Shown piece after piece: positions 1-23,059 of a stretch of DNA of 25,796 nt. The notes beneath the pieces were generated by a model. The model was given only the letters and a program-made list of their open reading frames with translations. It was not told the origin of the DNA and searched no databases. The position numbers were made by a program, and so were the translations under genes. This stretch comes from Spirogloea muscicola (lineage: Eukaryota; Streptophyta; Zygnematophyceae; Spirogloeales; Spirogloeaceae): positions 21,565 to 47,360 of the forward strand of contig WELB01000376.1 in NCBI GenBank assembly GCA_009602725.1, read 5' to 3'. Position 1 is the first letter of the stretch; every line of letters starts with the position of its first letter.

Positions 1-295
1 GCCGCGCCGCGTCCGCCGGCGGGCTGACGGCCGAGGCGCGACCGCCGCGGCGATCCCGGGCATCCGCGTGGCGGCTGTCCGGGGCCTGGAGACTGGTGGC
101 GCTTTCGTCAGCGGCAGGGAGCTCGTAGGACCCTACGAGGCTGCCGGGCCATCGCGCGCGGGCGCACTGAGCGCTCCGCGCAAGTGGAAATCCAGAGCGC
201 CGCCTCCGCCGCCAATTGCGGCCGCCGGCGCGCCGGCGGCCACCGAATTCACGGGGGACCAGGCGGCGGAGCTCCTGGCCAGGCCGCTTTCGGAC
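1..295 (+). other. CpG-rich 5' region of the MBD4-like gene
   Basis: This is very GC-rich sequence with the reading frame of exon 1 open from base 2 but containing no in-frame ATG before 296. It is either 5' UTR and promoter or the rest of an exon whose start lies outside the window. The predicted peptide is rich in Ala, Pro and Gly and shows no domain. Confidence 0.4.
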
Positions 296-3200
296 ATGGC
301 GGCGACGTCCCTCCGCCAGGCTGCGCCCAGGGGCCTGGGAAAGCACTGCCATTGCTGCCGGCAGAAGCGACCGATCGGCCAGCTTATACCATGCGGCGCG
401 TCCGCCGGCGAGGGCGGTGCCAAGCATGGCCCCTGGTGCCACCGCTGCATCGCCACACGGCTGCACCAGAGCCCTCACTTCATCGCCGCGGCCAGCGCCG
501 CCGCCAGAGACGGCTCCTGGAAGTGCCCCAGGTGAGCCAAAGTCTGCAAGCCTGTGCTTTGGCGACGGGGCATGGGGACATGGCATAGCGATATGCCTGA
601 GAAGTGAGTCTGGATGCGTGTAGCATGCATGCCGTTGCCCTCGACATTGTACTACTTGGAAACCTCATGCTTGACATACTCAGACTTCGATTCACTCGCA
701 CAATTGCGCCTGTTGTGGCCATCGGCGGTGCATCCTGCATGTCAGCGTTAATTGCCTCCTCTTAGCGAGACTCTGCAGGTGCTATGACGCATGCCCTTGC
801 AACAAGTGCGACCAACGCAGGAGTAAGCTTGGGAAGAGCATGGGGGATGCGATGGAGATGTGGGGCAGGTCAGTGCATGGTGATCCCTCTTTTTCATGTT
901 GGATGTTGGTTCTCCTTACGTCATGCTGCTGTTCTGGCTTGCAATTTGGCTGCCTACTGGTAATTCGTCATGACTTCCTCTCACCAGCCTATTGTGAACT
1001 GTTTGGCCCTGTCATCAGCGAGCGTGACTTCGTTGTGGAAGATGTTGATGTTGGAAGACAATCAGATGAGCTACAAGTAGAGCAGGACGCTGCCAGTGAA
1101 GATGATGAAGAGCCACACACCGATGATGAAGAGCAGAAACCATGTATGACTCTGGATGCTGGGGCTTGTGCGAGCCCGGTCTCTGCTCCAATCACTCTGA
1201 GAGGACCTGCAACTCCAGGCACTGGTGTCGGCCGAGGCCGACCAGCATGTACAAGCGTCCTCAGCAGCATTGACAGCCCTGGCGACTCATGTATGTTAGA
1301 ATGACGCTGCTTCTTTGACACATGAACTGCATTGGCTAGTCTCTTTTACTGGTCTGGTTCTAACATTCCGAGTACCTTGTCTCATCATCGTAGATTACAT
1401 GTTGATGTTGTTATGTTGCAGTTCAAGATGATCCAGAGTTGTACGAAGGAGCCCTTGGACTTTGTAAAATACTCGACGACTTAAGCAGCCCTCACATACC
1501 AAAATTGTCATTGACTCCAAAAAGTCATGTGAGTGGTTGCCTGGTAGCAGGTGCTAGAGCCTGCACTTCAGGGTATCTGTGTTTGTTGACTCTTGACCAC
1601 GTCCAAAAGGGATGTGCACGGTTGAGAGTGACAAGCATTTTGGAGATAAGTGCCCATTGGTGTAGGAGACCTCCATGATAGTGTCACTTTCACTATGATC
1701 ATCACTTGCGTCAAGCAGCAACGAAGAGCTATGCTATGTGGCGAAGCTCCTATGTTCGCCAAGTTAATAATAGCATATACCATTCTCCTGGATATGTCTC
1801 TCTACCGCTGATGTGCATCTGCTGTGCTTTGTACTGCAGGAAGCATGTACAGTTGTGACCCCAGCGTCTGCAACAATCGATTGGGGAGCCCCCTTAAGCC
1901 CCCAGAGTCGGAGAAAACGTTCACGAGTAGTTGCAGAGAGAAGGCAAATACTGCGGGCGGATGAGAGATTAGCCCCTGTTGTTACCGACAGCGCAATCTT
2001 GAAGAAGAAGCACTTTCATCCCCCAGTACACATACCCACATATATGCAGCAAGATTGCAGTGTTCATGCCATCGCACATGACAACCGCTTACCATTGCAC
2101 CCCAACGAGCAGCAGCAGGTGGCAGGGAAGGAGGAGGCAGTGAGTCCGTCCGAAGCAACGTCACACGAGCAGGCTGACAAGCCATGGGCTGTGTCTGAAG
2201 TGGATGTTGAGAAGCCCGAAGGTGATGGTGGGCACAACGATAGGCAAGGACAACCTCAAAGGGAGGTCACGCCTGCCTCGAGGCAGACAGTTGAGGAGCT
2301 GACAGGCAGCACAAGCAGCAGGGATGATGCAAGTACAGGTAGCAGCAGGGGTGAAGCCAGTGCCGGCTTGACTTCCGGCATAGAACTTGGTGGAGAGGCT
2401 GGACAGGAAGAATCTGGCGATTGCTTCAAGGATGGGGGATGTCACAGGAATGAGGGCAGCGAAGAAGGCAGTGAGAGCTCCCTAGAAGCTTTGCAAGGCA
2501 CAGTGCCTGGCATTGACTTTACAAGATATGCCTTCCTTCCTGGCAGCGCTGGAAAGTCCCACCAAGTGAGCTCACCACTAAGCATGAAGGCTAAGGCTGA
2601 GGCAAGCCTGGCAGCAGCTAAAGCATGCGCGGAGTCTGGTGGTTGGAGAGTCCTTGGACATCACCAGGGCCTCAAGGTTGGCCGGCCACGCACTATGCAG
2701 AGAGCTGCCAAGGGGCCACCAGGCAAGGTGCAGTTGCAGATCAATGATACTGGCGACGAGGCCAAACTTGCTGAAAAGAGGAAGAGGAAGGCAAAGGATC
2801 TTGGACTGACTCCAGCAGAGGTTGTGAAGAGGAGGAAAAATGTTGTGGATTCTACTTGGGTACCCCCCGTGTCGCCGTTTGGCTTGATACAAGAGAAGTT
2901 GTACCGTGAGCCGTGGAAGCTCTTGGTGGCATGCATGCTTTTAAACAAGACTGCGGGGCAACAGGTACTGACAGTAGTGCCAGTAGTCTGGCAGGATATG
3001 TCTTGCCATTTCTTATAGCTTGTCCTTAAGATTATCTGCCAGGAGGAAGTTAACAGCTCAAGTCATACATTAAGATGCTGCATAGAATGCTAGGCTGCTC
3101 CTTATCCGTCCACCGCAAAGCTGTCTAACTGTATACTTAATCATGCTAGCTCCAATCCCTTTGGCTTCAGATGTATCTTGTGATATGGGAGCTTTTTGAG

Positions 3201-3703
3201 CTCTGCCCGACACCAGAGGCTGCGGTGGCCGCCAGGACCGAAGACATTGGAGCTATCATTTACAGGCTTGGTCTACAAAACAAGCGCGCACACCTGATAC
3301 AACAATTCTCGGCTGACTACATACGAGACGATTGGACTGAGATCACACAATTGCATGGAATCGGCAAGTAGGTTTGCAAGCCTGTACTCAAGTGTGTCCA
3401 AGTCAGTCCAAGCGTAGTTGTCGTCCACTGGCCTTGCAGGCCCATGCCTTACGTCCACAATCTGCTTGCATGCATCAACAGCAGAGGATGGCATCGAATT
3501 GCATCTGTATCAATATCTTGGCATCCTTCACTTAACATACAGGGTGCCATGCATTGGTTGACAGGTACGCAGCTGACTCACATGCCATATTCTGTGAGGG
3601 GCGCTGGCGGGAAGTGACACCAGACGATCACATGTTGAACAAGTATTGGACCTGGTTGCACCAGACGCAGGGCCAGGGTTACGGCTTCTCTATGGACATC
3701 TGA
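296..3703 (+). CDS. MBD4-like DNA glycosylase with N-terminal CDCA7-type 4CXXC_R1 zinc finger
   Basis: Seven exons are proposed: 296-531, 779-879, 988-1290, 1422-1528, 1840-2964, 3171-3367 and 3565-3703. All junctions are GT-AG and the phases close, giving about 735 aa. Residues 16-89 carry C18xxC21 (followed by RQK), C33, C48xxC51, C77xxC80 and C84xC86xxC89, the zf-4CXXC_R1 pattern known from CDCA7. The middle is acidic and low in complexity. The last ~150 residues are an HhH-GPD glycosylase of the MBD4 type: [27 protein letters not shown], helix-hairpin-helix LHGIGK (~685-690), and [10 protein letters not shown] with the catalytic aspartate at about residue 711. MBD4 enzymes remove T or U mispaired with G, the products of 5-methylcytosine or cytosine deamination, in the nucleus. 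As in land-plant MBD4L no MBD is seen. The first ATG in frame is 296, but the frame is open upstream to base 2, so an earlier exon is possible. Exon 2 could instead end at 868, but that breaks the frame. The enzyme end is very certain; the fusion rests on phase-compatible introns. Confidence 0.85.
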
Positions 3704-4798
3704 GATAAAGCATGACATGTCCAAGTCCCTGCTCAGCGGCCAAATTCGCTGCACAAGTTCGCCCTGAGGCTGGGCAACAACTCGGTCAGCTGCCCTAAGG
3801 AGGCAGAAGTTCATACTTTGCAGGCCCATGTGCTTGTATGTATGTACAGGAGTTGGAAGGCTATAAGTTGGCAACTGGCCCCTCTGCACGGTGATAGGAA
3901 GGACCTCCCCTCCGAGCCCCATCCGTACCCCCTCCATCCCCACAACTCTTTGAGCCTTACTCATACTCAGTGCAGGGACAGTGGCGGGAGTTGCCTCAGC
4001 CATACAACATCTACGCCCTTGCCCTAGTACATTGTAGCGTCGCCTGTACAGAATACTGGTTTGGTTGTTGGGTGTACAAGTACCCAGTAGCAAGTACTGA
4101 TGTAGCGGACATGAGGGCGATGGGAGGCCCTGCGGGGTCTCTCCCTCTGGAGCTCGCTTTGGCTCTCACACTCTGGGCAGTGATACCATGTACATACGAG
4201 CCCCTCCTTTCTCTTGTCGCCTGTTGCCACTTAGGAACGTTGTATAGAGGAAGAGGCCATGCGGCCAGAATTCTTGCCGCCCAGTCAAGGCATACGTCCT
4301 CACACTGCGGAGGACACTACAACTGTGACAAAGCTTTGGCTTGACTGCTTGCTGGCGGCATGCCCCCTGCTCCTTTACAGTCTCCCCAAAATTCGTCCCT
4401 CGCTGGACCTCATATGCACCATTCTAGTACTCAGCAACGCACTATACATAAGGGCAGTAGTAGCACCGAGGGTGCTGAAGTGCCAGCGCTGACCTCAAAG
4501 GGTAGTATGAGGGCAGAAATATGATACAATTCACAAGTTGTCGGGTGCTCCGTCAGAAAAACACTATTGTTCACAACTTCGACAGTCCAAGTCAGCCTCT
4601 TGACTTGTGATAAAGTCCAAGTCCAGATCTTCCTAGTTGTAGCACAATCAAAGTAAGGCCACATGAGGTGCACTTTGTCTGTGACTGCAATCTTCAGCTC
4701 CTTGGCTGTAGCCCACTCACCAACAAACATCACGGGGGGCCTGCTTCACGCTGGCCAGCAGCATCTACTCCCTCCATGGGAGTGGTATCCCCATGGGA
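3704..4798. other. Convergent 3' intergenic region
   Basis: This lies between the stop of the MBD4-like gene (+) and the proposed last exon of MED10 (-). Small open frames occur on both strands, but none resembles a known protein or has a consistent exon structure. A TGTAA motif (the usual green-algal polyadenylation signal) occurs on the minus strand at about 4374-4378 and could serve MED10. Most of the segment is probably 3' UTR. Confidence 0.4.
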
Positions 4799-6206
4799 TC
4801 AGCTGAAAGCCCCCTCGACCACCTCCGCATGTGTAGTCGCCTCGTCCACATCCTTGGGACCGCCCGCGCCATTGGACAGAGTAGCAACTGGCTCAACCTT
4901 TACCACCTGCATATTATGAGGACAAGCAAGGAGGTGGACACATTAGGGTGCTGCACAAGAATCTGCCAAACTTTACAAAGTACAGTGTCTCGACTTAGCA
5001 GTACTTTTTAGCAGGGCAACAGAGGACAACAACAGTTCTTTGCTGTGATAGCACTCGCGAAGAGCTCGCTGACCCCAAGGACAATGCCAATTCATTCCGA
5101 GGCAGGCAAGGCCTCACCGAAGCACTCCGCAGGGCACGATATGCCTCGGTCTCCTCGGGAAACGCACCGTCGATAGCGATTATCAGCTCACTGCGCAGAG
5201 CCTGCAGCAAGAGCCCGAGCGGAGGCAGTGAGGCTGGCGCACCAAGCAAGGGGCACATGCAGGATGGTGCTGGCGCAGGCCCCGCCAACCTGGGGCCGCC
5301 CAACACAAGCGGCTCGCGGATGGCAATCTTGGCCAGCTCTGCTCCTGCCGTGAGGAGCGAGTGACAGATGCACAAGGCCAAGTGGAGCCGGTAGCGTGCG
5401 CCAATGGTCAGGCCGGAGTGCACCTTGAAGGCGTCCACACGGCCCTTGGTGGCCTGGTTGCGGGCCGCGCACGCCTGCAGGAGGTCACGCGTGAAGCTGT
5501 CGGGGTTGCGCCCCTCGTCGATCAGCCTGCGAGGCAGCAGAGCGCGCCCCACAAGCTCGCCCGCCTCAGGTTCTCAAGCTTCGGGCTCCATCTCACCTCG
5601 TGTATCACAGAACGGCTGTAGCTGCTTCATGTAGAAATGCAGTCAAATGAAGTCAAGCATTGATTATATTGCCCCAGGCTGTCAGCATGCAGGGGCTTGA
5701 GTGCTCTTCGCGGCGGGCTTCTGTGGGCCACCGCCGCACTCCAGCCCTGCAGTTCCGCGCTCTCCCTGCTGCCCAGATCCTTGCCCTCACGGTCTGGCGC
5801 AGAAAAGGCTCAGTGCAAGGAAGGCCAGCCTCTCACGGCGGCGCGTCGTCTGGCCGCTTTCTCACCTGACGACCTCCAGAGGGACGCGGGCGTCGCCGCA
5901 GCCGTCGGCCGCCTCGGCCACCGCGGCCAGCTCCTTCACCAGGCCATTCCTACGTGCCCGCCGCCGCCGCCAGGCGCCGGAGCTCAAGCTGGGCGGCGGG
6001 CGCGAGCCTGTGAAGCCGCCGCCACAACCAAGACCAAGGCGGCCGATGGCGGCGCCGGCCTCGGCCAGGAGCAAGGGGGGGGGGGGAGGGCCCCACAGGC
6101 GCTCGAAGAGCAGCAGCTGGCTGCTGTCGCGGTACCCCGCCAGCGTCCGCTCCAGCTGGTGAGTCTCGGCCAGCGCCCGCCCCACCGCCGCCCGCAGGCC
6201 GTCCAT
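4799..6206 (-). CDS. MED10: Mediator complex subunit 10
   Basis: MED10 is a small subunit of the middle module of Mediator, which links transcription factors to RNA polymerase II. Proposed exons on the minus strand are 6206-6097, 5949-5866, 5526-5424, 5201-5118 and 4906-4799, about 162 aa. The match covers the family length: the N-terminal helix (MDGLRAAVGRALAETHQLE), then SSQLLLFERL joined across an intron to NGLVKELAAVAEAAD, then VPLEVVRLIDEGRNPD, FTRDLLQACAARNQATKGR and finally ALRSELIIAI and FPEETEAYRA. Intron 6096-5950 is in frame and contains a GC-rich, G-run sequence; removing it restores the expected contiguity of ERL with NGL. The last exon is uncertain. Without splicing at 5117 the frame runs on to a stop at 4995, adding about 41 residues with no family similarity. 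The ATG at 6206 fits the family start. Intron positions are hand-placed. Confidence 0.85.
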
Positions 6207-6210
6207 GCCC

Positions 6211-6241
<31 letters not shown>

Positions 6242-6361
6242 TGAGCTGATGAGCTGAAGCTGCAGCCCGGCCGTGGAGACGTCCGCCCGCCGGAGTGGCC
6301 ACGCTGGACGTGGCCCGAGGTGACCTGATCAGACAGAAACGGCAGCTCATTCCGGAAAGAN
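6207..6361. promoter_or_regulatory. Divergent MED10 / MZT1 upstream region, ending in an N
   Basis: This short GC-rich interval holds the 5' side of MED10 (-) and the lost 5' side of MZT1 (+). It begins with a GCC-repeat tract (about 6207-6240) and ends in a single N at 6361. It probably contains a shared promoter, but the N suggests missing bases. No TATA box or other defined element is evident. Confidence 0.4.
6361..6361. other. Single N, probable collapsed gap at the MZT1 start
   Basis: One ambiguous base lies between MED10 and MZT1. It falls at the point where the MZT1 start codon is expected, in a GGC/GCC trinucleotide run. A gap of unknown length reduced to one N explains the missing start. 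Confidence 0.6.
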
Positions 6362-6602
6362 CGGCGGCGGCGGCGGCGGCGCCGCCGCCGCGACGGCCGC
6401 GGCAGCGTTGGAGGCGGCTCACGGCGTCTCGCGGCTTCTTCGCACGGGCCTGGACCGCGACACGCTGGCCGTGCTCGTCGCGCTGCTGGAGAACGGCGTC
6501 AACCCCGAGGCGCTCGCCGCCATCGTTCGCGACCTCCGCGAGCGCGGCCGCGCCCGCGCCGCCGCCGGCGCTGGAGCCGCTGCGGAGCCCCGCGGCTCGT
6601 AG
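6362..6602 (+). CDS. MZT1: Mitotic-spindle organizing protein 1 (MOZART1/GIP1), 5' truncated
   Basis: This is a very small protein that binds gamma-tubulin complex proteins and helps recruit gamma-tubulin complexes to microtubule-organising sites. The frame read from 6363 encodes Gly/Ala-rich sequence and then the family core VSRLLRTGLDRDTLAVLVAL, LENGVNPEALAAIVRDLRER, followed by an Ala/Gly/Arg tail and a TAG at 6600-6602. The core matches the MZT1 signature (GLDR-x-TL, GVNPEALA, V-x-(E/D)-LR) throughout. There is no intron in the visible part. The start codon is missing because the sequence begins at the N at 6361; the few residues before the core should lie in the missing bases. FBXL begins 142 bases downstream on the same strand, so its promoter must be short. 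Confidence 0.88.
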
Positions 6603-6744
6603 GACGCCCGCTCGCTCCCGCCACGACGCGCCGGCAGCGGTGCCAACCAGCGGCGGCTGAGCTCGCTCGCCGGGAGTGGCTCTTATCTGCGACGGCCGGG
6701 CGTCGCAGCATGCGCGGCCGCCGGGGGCTTGCCGCGCAGCCGCC

Positions 6745-9700
6745 ATGGACAGCCGGTCCACCAGCAGCTCCGGGAGCGCCGAGGACCTGCAGCAGGCGGC
6801 TCTGAGCCTCAGCCGGCCCGCGTCCCCCGCCGACGTCCCGCACGTCCTCCTCTTCGTCTTTGCGCTGCTGTGCCAGCGGGACCGGTGCAGCGTCGCCCTG
6901 GTCTGCCGCGAGTGGCACCGCCTCGCCAGTCACCCGTCGCTCTGGAAGGTAGCCTCGTTGCACTCCTGACCTGCCGAGGATATCGACCACATGGTCATAT
7001 TCTTGCATGCTCCACGCAAAGTGCCGCCCGACACCAAGTGGTCTTTTGTGTCATTGGTGGCGCTCTGATATAAAACAATTCATGGTAATAATTTGCTGTT
7101 TGCGCGTGCATCAAGCGACTGGCGCTCACGCCCTGATAGTAGTTCCGCGTGTCGGCAGACGCTGAGCCTCCAAGGTGCCCGCAATGCAGGCCAAAGGCTC
7201 CCCTCGGCTGTCATGCAGGTCAGTAACACAGAGTGATCAGGATGTGCACGTTGCTCTAGCAGACCTCCATGTGCTTGTTACGCCTGTCTTATCTCGTCTC
7301 TGCTGACATCCCAGGCCACCATGCCTCAATCAGGTTTGCATTGTGACTCCTCCAACAGGCGCGCTTCTGCCTCCTACGAGAGGTGGACTTCGAGTTCGCG
7401 CAGGGGTTGGAGGATCTTCATCTTTCTCTTCTAGCAGATAAGGTGACAAGGCCAATATCCCTCATCTTCATATCATTGGCTGGTCAGCCTCTCATTTGCT
7501 CGGTTGCATAATGGCTCATATCGAGCTGTGAGGAGATCAAGCTGCTTGCAGACGGAGTCAGAGTGCTGCTCACAGAGAATGAGTGTAGCTCACATCAGCA
7601 GCAAGCTCCACGCCTTCATCTTGTGACACAGCGGATGCGACAGGCAGCATGTCCTTTACATTCACTTCGGTTTGATTCCCAATCCTGCAATGTGCTCGCA
7701 GGACTTGCGCGTTGTCAATCTCAACGCATGTCAGAAAGTCACCGATGCTGGCGTAGTACATTTGTGCTCAAGTCAGCCTAAGCTGACAAGTCTCTCCATC
7801 TACTGGAACCTCAAGTAAGTGAGTGCTGCTGCTAGTGAGATGTGCAGCTTACGCTTTTCGTTTTGTCACCTTAGACCTATTACATTCCTTTTTGTTCTCC
7901 TTACACACAGTGTACTGGCTTGCTACGGCCTCCCTTCCATTTCATGCGCACAGCGAGCCTCCCCGTACACAAATCAGGATGATTAGCATGTAGACTAGCT
8001 GGTGACCTGGATGATTTCGATGATGCTGCCAAAGCAGGATAACAAACAGGTCGCTGGAGGCCCTGGCGACTTACTGCCCGCGACTGCAGAAGTTGAATAT
8101 CAGTGGCTGCAAGGTGAATGCACACACCACTTAGACGTGTGGTCAGTACAGCCGGTTATTGTTGGGAGGACAATGTCGCGCACGGTTGGCCTGATGCCTA
8201 CTCGTCAAGCTCAGAAAGCTTGAGTTGTCCCCACACAGGTCAGACTTAAGATGTCAGCTATATGCAGAGGCGTCACATTTAACCCTGGACTGCAAGTCAG
8301 TCTTTGGAAGTCTGCTGCAGGGTCGCTGCAGAATGGCAGGGGCTAGCACACTGTGCCACTCAGTCACTGTGCCAGGATACCAGCTCACTGCGTTGAGCTA
8401 TTTCATTTCTGTGCTACGACTCAGCATATCCAGCCTCATGTTGTGAGGCAATTGGTGACAATGACGGTTGCTAACCATGCAATTTGTATACCATAAAATT
8501 CTGCAGAACGTCACAAATGTCGGACTTCATGCTGTTGCCAGAAGTTGCCATCGATTGACCAGTGTCAACCTCACTCGGTAAGCAACCACTGCTCACAGCA
8601 TGGATATTTAGGCAGGCAGCTGATTGCGACCAGACTGATGGACGGGTTCTCCTCCATGAAGTAGGCTGAAAATGATTCATGTAACATGTACTCAGGGGTT
8701 GTCTTGCAGGTGCATTCACGTGACAGATGCAGGAGTAATCAACATCATTAGAAGTTGCACAGGATTGACTGAGTTGTATCTTTATGCTGACTCAAAGTAC
8801 GTGGATCAAGCTCTGCTGGACATTTTATATTGTTGGTTGTGAACATGTGCGGCTTACACCGCTCATTTAGCAGTTATGCGATGGATGCAAAGCATTGTCA
8901 CCTTAATCAATCTGCTGTCCGGCCTGGCAGCCTCACTGATCTACTTTTTACACGCCTCTCCACTCTCCACAACCTTCACCTTCTCGACCTGTGTGGCATG
9001 CAGGTACTTGTCTTAGCTAGTAGATTCTCCTCTACTGAAGACATAGGATACCTTTTAAGTATAACCTCATTGACATGGTACTTCTTTTGTACATACCAGG
9101 AGGATAGAATTGTATTGCTAGTTGTGAGAGCATGAGATCATAGTCTTCGCCAACTTACAGTCTTCGTATGCCGTGGAGGCCCTGTTGCAGCATTTGACAG
9201 ACAAGGGCCTTGAGGCTATCGGATCCTGTACGAAGCTGAGGTCGCTAAATCTGACATGGTGAGACGTGATTGATACATGCCGTGTGCATGATCATGGTTT
9301 GCTCATACTATCAATGACAATTCAAAGCTAGCCAGAGAAATTCCTGGCAAACACCGGCCATAATCTGAGCAGGATCTGTGTCTGAGCCGCTGGCAGGTGT
9401 GTCCAGATAACTGACGCAGGACTTGCTGCCATTGCGTATGGCTGCCAGTCTATGGAGGTTTTGAGGTACTGGTGGATGCAGAAGGGTCTTCTGCTCAACA
9501 ATGTACTTTCTGTCGCAGGTCCCACAAATGAAAGCTCAAAGAGTGACAACGACTGCAAGAGTCAATCAATTGCACCAGTTTATGTTTGTGAACTAGTTGG
9601 GATTTGTGCTTGATGATGACCTGCAGTCTTTATGGCATCCGGGGGATCACGGATAGCGGCATTGAAGCTCTGGCTCGGGGTTGCAGCACGTCGCTTACAA

Positions 9701-9952
9701 CCCTTGATGTCAATGGTTGTGTCAACATCATGGTAGCTCCACCTGGCCTTACAAGACCACCACAACCCTTGGTGGTATCTCATGCAGCTCCAGCTGCCAA
9801 ATAAGCCACACCCAGAAGCTGGCAAGACTTCTTCGCTTCTTGCTTCTTTTTGAGACTGACTGAATATGTGCTTGCCTGTTGTGCAGAGGCGATCCCAGGC
9901 TGAGCTGCTGCTGCTCTTCCCCAAGCTGCAGTGCTTCCTTGTTCACAGCTAG
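6745..9952 (+). CDS. F-box/leucine-rich-repeat protein (SCF substrate receptor, At3g58530-like)
   Basis: Twelve exons: 6745-6948, 7159-7218, 7359-7442, 7702-7814, 8038-8113, 8507-8577, 8710-8796, 8931-9003, 9191-9258, 9397-9465, 9627-9732 and 9887-9952. Phases close throughout, giving 358 aa, close to the plant relative. The N-terminus holds the F-box (about residues 30-68; CSVALVCREWHRLASHPSLWK). It is followed by about eight cysteine-containing LRRs, most introns falling once per repeat: VVNLNACQKVTDAGVVHLC, ITNRSLEALATYC, VTNVGLHAVARSC, VTDAGVINIIRSC, LTDKGLEAIGSC, ITDAGLAAIAYGC, ITDSGIEALARGC. The C-terminus ends in LFPKLQCFLVHS, as in plant At3g58530-type proteins. F-box proteins of this class bring targets to the SCF ubiquitin ligase; the target is unknown. 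About ten residues expected between exons 3 and 4 are absent, so a microexon in 7443-7701 may have been missed. The intron 8114-8506 shows nothing recognisable. Confidence 0.9.
7864..7950 (+). repeat. Decayed LINE-like 3' tail inside an F-box gene intron
   Basis: Part of intron 7815-8037 resembles the 3' tail of the retrotransposon cluster at the right end, for example the segment at about 24150-24280. Shared blocks in the same order are a TCACCTTAG block, CACAGTGTA followed by GGCTTG, and CCATTTCAT followed by TGCGC. It is too diverged to code. It lies in the sense orientation of the host gene. Confidence 0.55.
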
Positions 9953-10403
9953 CTGGCAGCAGCATTGTGTGTCCTCGGCTTAGCCCCCTAAAGTCCACCT
10001 TTCACAATGATGCTTAAGGGTCATTGCGTGCTGTTGGACGAAGCTCTGCAACACTCTCTGCTTGCTTTCAGCCGATGTATTGGCCTGCTGAGCCAAGGCA
10101 TGTCTCCAAATCACAGGACAGGCTCGAGCTGCTAGCTCAGCTGAGTGTCTTGGCCCTATCCTTGCCTCCTCCCGGACACCGACAGGAGTCGCCAAAGGAA
10201 CACTGCTGACTGCTAAGCCATGAGCCAGTTGTGCTACTTGCTAGTGCTTCAAGGACACCAGTATCTTCATCATGAGCACAGGGTAAAGACGCCGATACCC
10301 TTTGGCCTCTGAGGTCGGTCATGTCTGCAAAGGTGGAGGACGATGGCCTTGAAGCGGACACATGTCCCCAATCGACTTGGTGCGACATGCTTCATGACTA
10401 GCA
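9953..10403. other. Convergent 3' intergenic region
   Basis: This lies between the F-box/LRR stop (+) and the last proposed GARP exon (-). It should contain both 3' UTRs. Short open frames on both strands show no family similarity. Confidence 0.4.
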
Positions 10404-13214
10404 TTAGGACTCACGCTTGGAGCCTGGAGGTATGGCTGCGCAGCCTGTTGTGCGGTCATTGCGGCCTCTGCCAGCCATACTGGCTTCATTCCTCGCCTGT
10501 CCGAACGAGGACATGAGGTCCCTTGCCTGGTCGCCGCTGGTCCCGCCTGGCACACGCTCTGACCTCCCTCTGGAGGTGCTGAGTGCAGCCCGGCGGCGTG
10601 CGTGGAACTCCTCATCAGCGTCCCTGTCGGGGGCTCCGTCAAACTCGTGCAAGGCTGCCGGATTGTCCTCGGCGCCATGCAGCTCATGGCGCCGCCGACT
10701 TTGGTGCGGCAGCACGCCCGTCAGGGGCGGGTACTCGCCTACCTCCTGGAAGGCTGCTGACAGTGGCTGCTGCTCCGATGGCCGCTTGTACGAGGAGGGC
10801 TCCTGCCACTGAGGCTGGACACTACCAGGTGCAACGGGAGTGCATCATAAGGCTACGGAAATGCATGCCACCAAGTTACTAGAGAGAACGGTGCTCCAGC
10901 AGCAAGCTCATTATTGCACAATTATCAAGCAAGGGCCTTTGTGAAGTATCGATGAGCGAGAAGGCAGGAAGGTGACGCTTGATGTCCTTGCATGGCCGTG
11001 TTGTAGCCACAGATGTCCTTGTTAGTGGCGCAGTACATGCAGCAGACTGCTGTTCAGTGTCTGGCAGGCTGCTGTAGGTGCAGGTACCTGTAGAGCTCAC
11101 GCTCCATCAACACGTGCTGCTGCTGGTTCCGCTCCAAGGATGGCACTGGACCGGAATCCATGCACGGGCCGGATGCTGGTGCGTCAAATGCGGCCCCCTG
11201 CGATGCCGCGGCTGTTGTGGCAGGCAGAGCCTGTGTGTACCCTGGGGGCACCCAGATGCTCCCCAGCACCATCAGCTGCTGCGCCGCACCGCCACTCCCC
11301 GCGGTCGCCAGCGTCTGCAGCTGCAGAGACGGGCTTGGCCTCCGCGTATGCAGGCGATACTTCTGTGCCCAGAATGAAAGAGGGCAGAAGTCAGTGCTCG
11401 GAAATGCACCCAGGCGCTGGCGCAATGGCCTTAAATGTTGCGAGACAATGCAAGACCAGGGCACTGTTGTAAGATGTTGCAAGAAAATGCAAGAGCAGGG
11501 CTATGGCTCCGCGTTTACCTGAAGGTGCGACTTGACCTCGTCATTTGTGAGCCCGTCCACCTTCATGAGCTCGCGTATGTGCTTTGGCGTTGCCACTGCG
11601 CACAGCCACCGGCACGCGCTGTGCATAAGTAGGGCTCATTCTTCACTTGGATGGGTGGGTGGGAAGAAGGGGGGGCCTGCAATTGATTAAAGCTGCAACA
11701 GCACTCTGGGCCCACTGATGCTCATGTTTGACCACAAACAGTGCGCGCTCATGTGGTGCTGCCTCCATTGTTCGCCAATCACAGCAACCCAGACATGCTC
11801 GAGATTATAGGAAGATCTAGGGAAGGGGCATTGGAGGTTTACTACGGGGTCCCCCTAGCTGCTTAAGCGCCTCCACAAAGCGGCGGTGCAGCTCCGGAGA
11901 CCAGCACCGGCGCACCTTGCGCTCCCGAGGGGACAGGTTCCCGCTGCCGACACGCTCGAGACTGTGCGAGCCGCCATCCCGTGCCCGCATGTCGTCAGAG
12001 CTCTCCCCTGAGCTCCTGTCAAGGGGGCCCCTGCCGCGCTCGAGGACAGCCCTTTCACCGGTATCCAGTGACGCCGACCTCTCCAGCTTGTAACCCGTTG
12101 AGGCGCCAAAGCCCAGGCCGCCATTGTGGCCGCGGATGCCAAGGGCAAGCTCCGTGGACGTCGGGGAGAAGTGGTGTAGGGAGGAGGGCCGTTTCGGTGG
12201 CTGTGACGGGGGGCCATACACCTGCCCTGGGCTTGAGCTGGACCGGCTGAAGGGCGTGAAAGCACCGAGCGGCCGACGCTGAGCAGGATGTGAGGCCCCC
12301 CCGCCGGTGGCATCACCACCGTCAAGGTGCACTTGAGCGTGTGCACCGTCATCCGTAAGCTCCTGCAACGCCTGCGCCGTTTGGAGCGCCTGCTGGCCCT
12401 CTGCCTGCAGAGTCACCTGGAAGAGCCAGGTCAGCACATAGCAGTCTAGCATGCAAGCAGAGAGACCCACAAGTCTAAGCGGGCATGCTACTTAGATCCC
12501 ATCAAAGTAGCTGAGCCGGCCGAGCGGGAGCAGGCCCAGCATCTTCGCTGCGGTAGAGACTCCTATTAATGGCCCCTCTCGCGTTGTCCAAGTCGCGCCT
12601 CTGCAGACATTGCAGCAAGCCGGCTCGTCTAGCAAGACGCCGGACAATCGTAGCAACTTCAGCTTTCCATCTTGAAAGATTGCTGCGCCGGGATGTCACG
12701 GATGCCTTACCTGCTGGCCTCCTGCCGCCTGCCACTGGTTCCAGAGCTGCGGCCCAACGTGCCACACTGCAGTCGGTGGCAGCTGCAGGCCCAGGAGATG
12801 GCTGCCGTCGCCCTTGGGGGCAGGCGATGCTGCTGCCGCCTGGCTGAGCTGCAGCGGCTCCGCCGCGGCGCTACCGTGGCCACCAGGCTCCTCCGGCGGG
12901 CACCTCGCCTCGGGCGCAATATCGCCGTCGCCGCCTCCGCCGTGCGCGCTGCTCCTGCTGAAGACGCTCTGCAGCCGCCTCTTGGCCACAGCTACCGCTA
13001 CGCCAGACCCAATGCACGCCCCCGTGAGCACGACAGCACCCACATGGCATTTCTGGTCGAGCCCCGCAGATGCGTGAGCACAGAGCAGGGGGCCCAGCGC
13101 GTCACCTTCGTCGAGCAGGCCCATGCAGAGCGGCAGCTCGCGCTTGAAGGCCTCGATCTTGCGCTGCTCATCCTGCAGCGCTCGCAGGTGCTCCTCCAGC
13201 TGCGCCGCCAGCAT
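10404..13214 (-). CDS. GARP (MYB-like) transcription factor, HRS1/HHO/NIGT1 type
   Basis: Proposed minus-strand exons are 13214-13106, 12991-12711, 12416-11843, 11595-11519, 11362-11088 and 10821-10404, all phase-consistent, about 577 aa. The N-terminus is the HHO coiled-coil box ([20 protein letters not shown] followed by ELPLCM). The GARP DNA-binding domain, about residues 296-354, is split over three exons: [39 protein letters not shown], then SHLQ joined to KYRLHTRR. The following [12 protein letters not shown] is also typical of this group. Land-plant members are nuclear repressors in nitrate and phosphate starvation signalling; that role is only inferred here. Linkers are rich in Ser, Pro and Gly. 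The second exon's acceptor at 12992 is weak; the 114-base intron is also in frame if retained. The last exon shows no known domain. The start is the first ATG but lies 15 bases from an N. Confidence 0.85.
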
Positions 13215-13228
13215 ACGCCCGCCGGCCG

Positions 13229-13229
13229 N
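13229..13229. other. Single N between two head-to-head genes, probable collapsed gap
   Basis: The N lies between the GARP start (13214, minus strand) and the first phosphatase codons (from 13231, plus strand). Only about 16 bases separate two coding sequences with no room for promoters or the phosphatase start, so bases are almost certainly missing here. Confidence 0.7.
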
Positions 13230-13230
13230 G

Positions 13231-14817
13231 CCCCGCGTGGTGGCGCTTGGCGACGTGCATGGCGACCTGGGCGCGGCGCGCGCGGCGCTGCGCCTGGCGG
13301 GCCTGCTGGCGGAGGAGGACGGCGGCGAGGACCGGTGGGCGGGCGGCGCCGCAGTGGCGGTGCAGGTGGGCTGCCAGTCGCTGGTGTTTGCGCCTTTCGG
13401 CCCTTTGGACCTCGTTCACTCCGTTTGGGTGTCGGCCTGCTTGCAGCGAGAGCTCAGGCTCATGCTGTGCACCAGAAAGCTGGTCGAGCATTAGCTGGTG
13501 GCACAAGAGCTTGCTCATTGCCGTCCGGTATTCGGGCATCAGTTAGCGACCTCTACGTGCTGACTGGTGGTTACTGAGCGTGTCAGCTTAGCAGCAGGTG
13601 ATGTGCATCTGTCAATGTGCTTGCCTTGGTACTTGGCCACTCAGGCCCTCCAACTTTAAGTACACACTTCAATTATTTCTGGGCTGACTTTCCACAGGTG
13701 GGTGACGTGCTGGACCGCGGCGGCGACGAGCTGCGCCTGCTGTACCTGCTGGAGAAGCTGCGCCGCGAGGCCGGCCGCGCCGGCGGCGCGCTGCTGCTCC
13801 TGCACGGCAACCACGAGGCCGTCAACCTCGCCGGCACCTTCCGCTTCGCCACGCCCGCCGGCCTCCAGGTGGGCGGCGGCGTCCGCTGCGGCCAGCTTCT
13901 CTTGAACGTTGTGGCAATGGCGGCCGCTCTCGATCTGCTCACGAAGCGCCTCGCTACGTGATCGTGGGCTGGCCACTTTATGGGCTAGGCAGCTGCGCGC
14001 CCGGCCTACCGGCCCACCACCCAAAGCTCTGTGCACGCCTTACGGTCTTGCCTAGTCCTGTGCCAGTGGTCACTCTCTGTCGACAGCTGATGGGTCTGGT
14101 CTGATGTGATCTCAATGTGGCCATTGCCAGGAGTTCGACCACTGGCTCAAGTGGCAACTCATTGGCAACCAGCTCAAGCGGCAGTGCGAGGGCGTGCCGA
14201 AGCCCCGCAGCCCCACAGCTGGCGTGCCTGCCTTTGTGCCGCCTGCTGAGAGGGCTCGATATGCGGCCCTCCGTCCGGGGGGTGCCATCGCGAAGCGCTT
14301 CCTGGCTTCCCACTCCGTGGTCGCCCTGGTTGGGACCACTCTCTTTGTCCACGGCGGCGTCCTTCCGCAGCACGTCGCCTACGGCCTGGACAGGATCAAT
14401 CAGGAGACACAGGGCTGGGTTCTCGGCAGCGGCGGGCACATGCCGACATTCCTGCAGGGCAAGGACGCCATCGTTTGGTCCCGCCAATACTCAGAGCGCA
14501 GGGAGAGAGACTGCCGTTGTGATGTGCTGGAGCAAGCCCTTGAGATGATGCCAGGCGTCTCTCGCATGGTCGTTGGGCACACCATCCAGCAGCCCGGTGG
14601 CATAAATGGCGCCTGTGGCAACCGGGTGCTCCGAGTCGATGTGGGCATGAGTGCTGGCTGCGGTGGTGCGGCGCCTGAAGTCCTTGACATTCGGGCGGAC
14701 CGCATCATCCGCGTGCTGCGGAGAGATGGCCCGCCCAAGCTGCTGCACATCGAGGATTTACCACCACGGGGACTCGCAGATATTCTGCCTATCCCTGTCG
14801 AAGTGCAGGTCCACTGA
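13231..14817 (+). CDS. Shewanella-like PPP-family protein phosphatase (SLP), 5' truncated
   Basis: This is a metal-dependent Ser/Thr/Tyr phosphatase of the PPP superfamily, in the bacterial-like SLP branch of plants and algae. Visible exons are 13231-13365, 13698-13868 and 14131-14817 (stop TGA), 330 residues. The catalytic motifs occur in order: RVVALGDVHGD, GDVLDRGGDE, LLLLHGNHEAVNL, LFVHGGVLP and VVGHT. The aspartates, histidines and asparagine of the two-metal site are all present. The C-terminus (DILPIPVEVQVH) lacks the PP1/PP2A-type tail, as expected for SLPs. No targeting peptide can be judged because the start is lost at the N at 13229; plastid (SLP1-like) and cytosolic or mitochondrial (SLP2-like) forms cannot be separated here. 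Intron 1 (13366-13697) holds a retrotransposon fragment. The gene is head-to-head with the GARP gene. Confidence 0.93.
13429..13645 (+). repeat. LINE-like 3' fragment (copy A) in phosphatase intron 1
   Basis: This sequence resembles the plus-strand copy at 24676-24880. Shared parts are TCGGCCTG followed by TTGCAGCG, the GTGCACCAGAAAGCTGG-like block, the terminal peptide SVSDLYVLTGGY with its TGA at 13575-13577, and a tail with ATGTGCTTGCCTTGGTACTTG. The upstream frame is broken compared with the later copies, so it is an old insertion. It is in the sense orientation of the phosphatase gene and fills most of the intron. Confidence 0.7.

Positions 14818-15512: not shown

Positions 15513-23059
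<7,547 letters not shown>

Follow-up and report, generated by a model that had tools for sequence, protein, structure and literature searches.

In a 25,796-nucleotide stretch of the Spirogloea muscicola genome (contig C376:21565-47360 of a 153 Mb assembly of 471 contigs; hereafter the window), a predicted seven-exon gene at 296-3703 on the forward strand joins a divergent 4CXXC_R1 zinc finger of the CDCA7 type to a DNA glycosylase domain of the MBD4 type. We propose that this one gene encodes an MBD4-type glycosylase in which the finger replaces the methyl-CpG-binding domain (MBD) of the animal enzyme and guides it to methylated DNA, a reading to which, taken as a whole, we give an even chance. 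Methyl-guided repair by the fusion is plausible from the residues that the finger retains, and a preference of the finger for hemimethylated CpG would be the least certain part of the model.

RESULTS

An earlier interpretation made from the letters alone (the sequence-only reading) had assigned seven phase-compatible exons to a single gene. Joining them at GT-AG introns, with phases 0-2-2-1-0-0-2 that agree throughout, gives a protein of 721 residues and a stop codon, and a second copy of the gene keeps the same splice sites, start, and stop (copy B; the window gene is copy A). Exon 1 (296-531) contains the ATG and the first part of the finger, residues 1 to 79, with 6 of its 10 signature cysteines; its ATG and donor are kept in copy B, at 97.0% identity and with no indel. 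Exon 2 (779-868; residues 79 to 109) supplies the last four signature cysteines (C80, C84, C86, and C89) and is 100% identical in copy B, compared with 89% and 84% for the flanking introns. The linker of about 475 residues between finger and glycosylase domain begins as an acidic stretch in exon 3 (1019-1290; residues 109 to 200), which has an AT-hook-like RGRP at 181 and a ratio of nonsynonymous to synonymous substitution rates (dN/dS) between the copies of 0.126. It runs on through exon 4 (1422-1528; residues 200 to 235), which has no Met codon and differs between the copies by one synonymous and three nonsynonymous changes, and into exon 5 (1840-2964; residues 236 to 610), where basic clusters resembling nuclear localization signals and a GRPR motif precede the start of the glycosylase domain (dN/dS of 0.211 for residues 236 to 560). 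Exon 6 (3171-3367) encodes the glycosylase core with most of the helix-hairpin-helix (HhH) hairpin LHGIGKY (residues 671 to 677), and exon 7 (3565-3703) encodes the end of the domain and the stop codon.

The C-terminal domain (2851-3667, residues 573 to 710, with introns 2965-3170 and 3368-3564 inside it) is clearly of the MBD4 type by its similarity to solved structures: for 15 distinct MBD4 sequences of solved structure the E values range from 3e-39 to 2.4e-37, and the next best matches, two endonuclease III sequences, reach 0.03. Its identity to two solved MBD4 chains, 7kz0 and 1ngn (presumably human and mouse MBD4), is 44 and 46%. In a four-row alignment that includes these two chains, the LHGIGKY hairpin is invariant, as is the Asp-His pair within the catalytic segment, and D697 (codon at 3626-3628), the aspartate of this pair, aligns with the catalytic aspartate of MBD4; we take it to be the equivalent of human D560 in role and number. 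The MBD4-type HhH-GPD domain with its catalytic aspartate, as named in the sequence-only reading, is thus borne out. General profiles recognize the domain less well. Pfam PF00730 (HhH-GPD) matches residues 598 to 709 with an E value of 7.7e-5 and 23.4 bits, below its cut-off of 26.2, and the sole NCBIfam match is a weak one to endonuclease III (28 bits, where the cut-off is 211.7). A Pfam scan of the 721-residue model up to an E value of 1 returned only PF00730 and, above its cut-off, PF10497, and detected no MBD, DDT, WHIM1, or JmjC domain.

A protein search of the genome gave 14 matches, 7 to each fused copy, and no other MBD4-like gene among them, in an exon-by-exon search that could miss a diverged second MBD4. 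The sensitivity of such searches is limited, since the genome scan with PF00730 (4 matches) missed the window gene's own domain and that with PF10497 (11 matches) missed the finger of copy B. PF03167 (UDG) had no match in the genome, a null that says nothing about TDG and that we ascribe to sensitivity, because TIGR00628 then found eight partial UNG matches, none above its cut-off. Nine loci on viral contigs encode an MBD4-type glycosylase in frames of 147 to 171 residues from stop to stop, 37 to 42% identical to the window domain; they represent five distinct frame sequences (four loci are identical, as are two others). A scan of a separate collection of genome contigs gave one bacterial relative, with a frame of 134 residues from stop to stop. 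With frames of only 134 to 171 residues, these viral and bacterial domains would stand alone, with no room for a finger; they are informative about the glycosylase rather than about the fusion.

The N-terminal finger (338-827, residues 15 to 95, with intron 532-778 inside it) matches Pfam PF10497 (zf-4CXXC_R1) with an E value of 3.2e-8 and 34.1 bits (cut-off 22.7), and its best solved relatives are the CDCA7 chains 8tlk, 8yv8, and 8tle (E values of 0.019 to 0.098). The finger had been described as having at least eight ordered cysteines and RQK after the first pair; it does begin with CxxCRQK, and of the 11 cysteines in the signature it has 10, in the right order. Pairwise and three-row alignments place R22-Q23-K24, G45, and R55 opposite R274-Q275-K276, G294, and R304 of human CDCA7 (numbers counted from R274 in the structure chain). 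R22-Q23, encoded at 359-364, therefore correspond to the two residues with a reported role in reading hemimethylated CpG, and the equivalents of the three residues associated with ICF (immunodeficiency, centromeric instability, and facial anomalies), R274, G294, and R304, are all present as R22, G45, and R55. In the available part of PMC11343034, R274 and Q275 are the residues that confer hemimethylation selectivity, R304 and S330 contact the backbone, and a change of G294 is predicted to disrupt a zinc site. The sequence-only reading had also pointed to a replaced glycine in the motif TRLH. A His does stand in place of a Gly two residues after the R304 equivalent, but the glycine associated with ICF is a different one and is still present, as G45.

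Several features of the finger weigh against the reading of methylated DNA. By sequence, its match to the CDCA7 structures is weak (best E value 0.019). The fourth signature cysteine (human C289) has no equivalent, Asn stands at the position of S330, and there are insertions of 1, 2, and 6 residues relative to human CDCA7. The C-terminal extension of CDCA7 is not recognizable here, because the Pfam alignment covers the profile only up to position 77 of its 99 and leaves the last 22 positions unmatched. This unmatched end corresponds to the helices on which DNA binding by human CDCA7 depends, and in the finger alignment we found no convincing C-terminal helical segment, although a diverged helix is possible; downstream of the finger, a short segment is followed by acidic sequence. 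According to the available part of PMC11343034, the cysteine-rich segment of the human protein did not detectably bind DNA by itself, an N-terminal extension raised binding weakly, and selective binding came with the C-terminal extension, for which two helices are predicted. With both the C289 equivalent and the C-terminal segment missing, the specificity of the finger may have been lost or changed.

These losses and the inactivity of the isolated human segment give weight to a different view, which we hold to be a serious possibility, though short of an even chance: that the fused gene is real but its finger is degenerate, no longer reads methylation, and binds DNA nonspecifically or binds a chromatin protein. 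Divergent fingers of JmjC proteins may act likewise, and the known roles of divergent variants, as far as the available part of PMC10538959 describes them, are not directly tied to DNA methylation. The genome also contains separate canonical CDCA7-type genes that have the C-terminal segment. However, the degenerate finger would have to be reconciled with the retention of all five equivalents of R274, Q275, K276, G294, and R304, and with the finding that no other part of the protein is as constrained as the finger (dN/dS of 0.044, resting on seven changes of which one is nonsynonymous). Because the reading residues of CDCA7 are kept, we favor the reading of methylated DNA by the finger.

The second copy lies on contig C30, which is colinear with the window in blocks from 14 to 13235 and 89.6% identical to it over 12,757 aligned bases (about 10% diverged). 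Copy B retains the start and stop codons and every one of the 12 splice dinucleotides. Exons of the two copies are 94.6 to 100% identical and introns 82 to 91%; the only two exon indels (3 and 12 nucleotides) both keep the frame, whereas just 2 of the 14 indels in introns have lengths divisible by three. The overall dN/dS is 0.158, with 0.044 for residues 1 to 110, 0.213 for the linker (residues 111 to 570), and 0.070 for residues 571 to 721, and third codon positions account for 57 of the 93 exon differences (P = 3e-8). The comparison of the copies places the fusion of finger and glycosylase before their divergence and puts it under purifying selection, both domains and linker taken together. 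A pseudogene was rejected on the overall dN/dS and the intact frames of both copies.

We consider it very unlikely that the region contains two adjacent genes, one for a 4CXXC_R1 protein that ends in or after exon 3 and one for an MBD4-like protein that starts downstream. In copy A an in-frame stop does follow the exon 3 donor by five codons (ending at 1304), but copy B does not have it at that position. The motif TGTAA, which we take to be a chlorophyte polyadenylation signal, occurs in exon 4 of both copies (at 1463 in copy A), and none was found in the 0.9 kb scanned past the copy A stop codon; a shorter, finger-only transcript that uses the exon 4 motif may therefore exist. Exon 4, with its four changes, gives no sign of constraint when taken alone (P = 0.41 for a third-position excess), and exon 3 is weak on the same test (P = 0.21). 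Exon 5, in contrast, has a clear excess (P = 2e-5), which is seen in residues 236 to 303 (P = 0.009; P = 0.049 when synonymous and nonsynonymous changes are counted over almost the same residues) and in residues 304 to 483 (P = 0.02). Exon 4 offers no Met to a downstream gene, and the first Met of exon 5 differs between the copies (304 in copy A, 247 in copy B), the earliest common to both being 484 in copy A numbering. Since the third-position excess precedes this shared Met, exon 5 is probably translated from the upstream exons. Intron 2 contains two 1-nucleotide indels between the copies; read-through is possible in copy A but in copy B shifts the frame into stops, so intron 2 must be spliced in copy B. 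The compatible phases and the conserved splice sites likewise favor one gene over two.

At the 5' end, base 1 of the window lies directly 3' of an N run on contig C376, and a 1,292-base N run (L028:3156-4447) lies just upstream of the gene in copy B too, which puts the promoter and any 5' exon outside the assembly. Upstream of 296 the frame of copy A is open to the window edge; that of copy B has an in-frame stop, and the next Met is the ATG at 296. This supports 296 as the start, and an N-terminal extension beyond it was rejected on the same grounds.

The host is a setting in which repair of deaminated 5-methylcytosine (5mC) would make sense, as judged from an excess of CpG transitions and from the presence of SRA, MBD, and canonical CDCA7 genes. 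Differences of the CpG to TpG/CpA kind between the two copies amount to 199/1386 (14.4%), compared with 135/2624 (5.1%) for the matching GpC transitions, a 2.8-fold difference; transversions are at 6.1% for CpG and 4.7% for GpC. Within the six introns of this gene the ratio of observed to expected CpG is 0.44; for the window as a whole it is 0.72. Profile searches of the genome gave four matches to the SRA domain and four to the MBD. These figures make 5mC likely in this genome, as a signature in the sequence rather than a methylome.

There are 10 other zf-4CXXC_R1 matches in the genome, on contigs C127, C89, and C43. CDCA7-type genes are carried by C127:282094-314553 (four match sets within 33 kb), C89:80581-80970, and C43:480581-480989. 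Most of the pieces examined are of canonical CDCA7 type, with RQKT, GQFCGDC, YGEN, CNCSFC, and, beyond the last cysteine, a GWAPTGQLYRKV segment; at least two of the C127 loci (L005 and L006) look altered by comparison.

Matches to the C5 DNA methylase profile PF00145 number 71 genome-wide, many of them fragments. The one followed up, at C2:496500-502500 (L085), lies in a frame of 1411 residues that combines the DNA methylase with a retropepsin and a zinc knuckle, both below cut-off, and the next frame encodes a reverse transcriptase and RNase H. By its domain content this locus is a retrotransposon with its own methyltransferase; DNA methyltransferases taken into retrotransposons have been described in dinoflagellates and charophytes (PMC5890265, available part). 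That CDCA7-type fingers act in methylation maintenance (PMC11343034, available part) and that methylase matches abound, even if the one inspected belongs to a retrotransposon, could point to a role of the fusion in active demethylation or methylation control instead of mutation avoidance, the finger bringing base excision to hemimethylated CpG. We find such a role hardly credible: direct excision of 5mC is reported for the DML family and excision of T or U for MBD4L (PMC6728418, available part), and the fusion carries an MBD4-type domain, from whose sequence 5mC excision is not inferable.

Some further observations concern the assembly. Besides the window gene and its C30 counterpart (10% nucleotide difference), matches to SRA, MBD, UNG, and HhH-GPD also occur as pairs on separate contigs, which suggests two diverged haplotypes or subgenomes. 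Colinearity with C30 stops at 13235, adjoining a single N at 13229, though the compared C30 stretch continues for about 2 kb; an assembly misjoin near 13229-13235 is possible. Single N bases also occur at 6361 and 22966, and near the latter a long poly-A tract abuts a long poly-T tract. On the reverse strand, 21480-22229 of the window contains a fragment of a Glyco_transf_20 gene (E value 1.1e-17), presumably of the trehalose-6-phosphate synthase family. Telomere-type TTTAGGG arrays are present in the genome, in keeping with a green plant or alga. Among the matches listed for C27:905790-906317, such arrays stand head to head, (+) then (-), near 905,866, and represent either fused telomeres or an assembly join.

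DISCUSSION

In the model that we propose, the C-terminal domain would excise T or U from mismatches with G at CpG sites, as MBD4 and AtMBD4L do, and the N-terminal finger would tether the enzyme to methylated chromatin through Arg22 and Gln23 in the CpG major groove. Such tethering would raise repair where 5mC deaminates. The removal of T and U opposite G by MBD4 and AtMBD4L is described in the available parts of PMC10573277 and PMC6728418.

The sequence-only reading went further and suggested that the finger directs repair to newly replicated, hemimethylated DNA. Its two-domain, single-gene part stands. Its targeting part is at best plausible: the reading residues are kept, but C289 and S330 are missing, the finger has insertions, and no C-terminal segment is recognizable. 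We regard it as unlikely that the finger is a true hemimethylation sensor that would direct repair to freshly replicated or single-strand-methylated CpG. In such a sensor Gln23 would require the opposite strand to be unmethylated; when the sole 5mC deaminates, the resulting T keeps its methyl group beside G, and Arg22 could read the lesion itself. Were this true, T:G repair would be tied to a replication window, unlike the MBD targeting of animal MBD4.

Why would a fused finger matter? Plant relatives of MBD4 are described without an MBD (PMC10573277 and PMC6728418, available parts), which raises the question of how such enzymes find deaminated 5mC; in the fusion, a member of the family to which the hemimethylation-sensing finger of CDCA7 belongs stands at the N terminus. 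If the finger works as a reader, the fusion would represent a second way in which nature has solved methyl-guided mismatch repair, and the effect of a reader on a glycosylase could be studied within one protein. If it does not read methylation, the conserved fusion would still show that base excision repair, and not only chromatin remodeling and histone demethylation, has recruited a 4CXXC_R1 finger.

The architecture had been thought undescribed, and our literature searches found no description of a 4CXXC_R1 finger paired with MBD4, within the limit that a paper mentioning only 4CXXC and a glycosylase could be missed. A review of noncatalytic domains of glycosylases (PMC9266487) deals, in its available part, with the MBD in MBD4 and with DME's permuted CXXC; it mentions neither algae nor hemimethylated DNA.

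Recombination of the 4CXXC_R1 finger with another chromatin or DNA domain is itself known from DDR1-3 (with DDT and WHIM1), IBM1/JMJ24, fungal JmjC proteins, and CHROMO forms, but none of these is paired with a glycosylase in the available part of PMC10538959, and the word glycosylase is missing from its main text. The finger of the fusion, judged by its conserved positions, fits none of the three classes whose rules that paper gives for zf-4CXXC_R1 proteins: it has fewer than the 11 cysteines of class I, it lacks both the substituted G294 (G45 is kept) and the DDT and WHIM1 domains of class II, and it is not joined to the JmjC domain of class III. Compared with CDCA7 itself (class I, HMZF domain), it shares the CxxCRQK start, the R274, Q275, G294, and R304 equivalents, and 10 of 11 cysteines; it differs in having no C289 equivalent, no S330, and no recognizable C-terminal segment, and in being joined to a glycosylase.

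Among glycosylases, DME and ROS1 of the DML family also combine an HhH-GPD domain with a CXXC-type zinc finger (PMC9266487, available part). In contrast to the fusion, however, they belong to a split HhH subfamily with an iron-sulfur cluster, excise 5mC, and carry a C-terminal permuted CXXC that is described as homologous to other CXXC fingers. Plant MBD4L (AtMBD4L, At3g07930) is closer, being an MBD4 glycosylase without an MBD and with a long N-terminal part (PMC10573277 and PMC6728418, available parts); it is described without an N-terminal reader, whereas the fusion has the 4CXXC_R1 finger, and the likeness is one of descriptions, not of sequences. With animal MBD4 the fusion shares the C-terminal HhH-GPD domain at 44 and 46% identity, the catalytic Asp, the LHGIGKY hairpin, and the general plan of an N-terminal module followed by a long linker. 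The difference lies in the module, which is a zf-4CXXC_R1 finger where the animal enzyme has an MBD. As far as the literature searches reach, the 4CXXC_R1-MBD4 architecture appears to be new, and it is best described as an MBD4 with a different N-terminal module.

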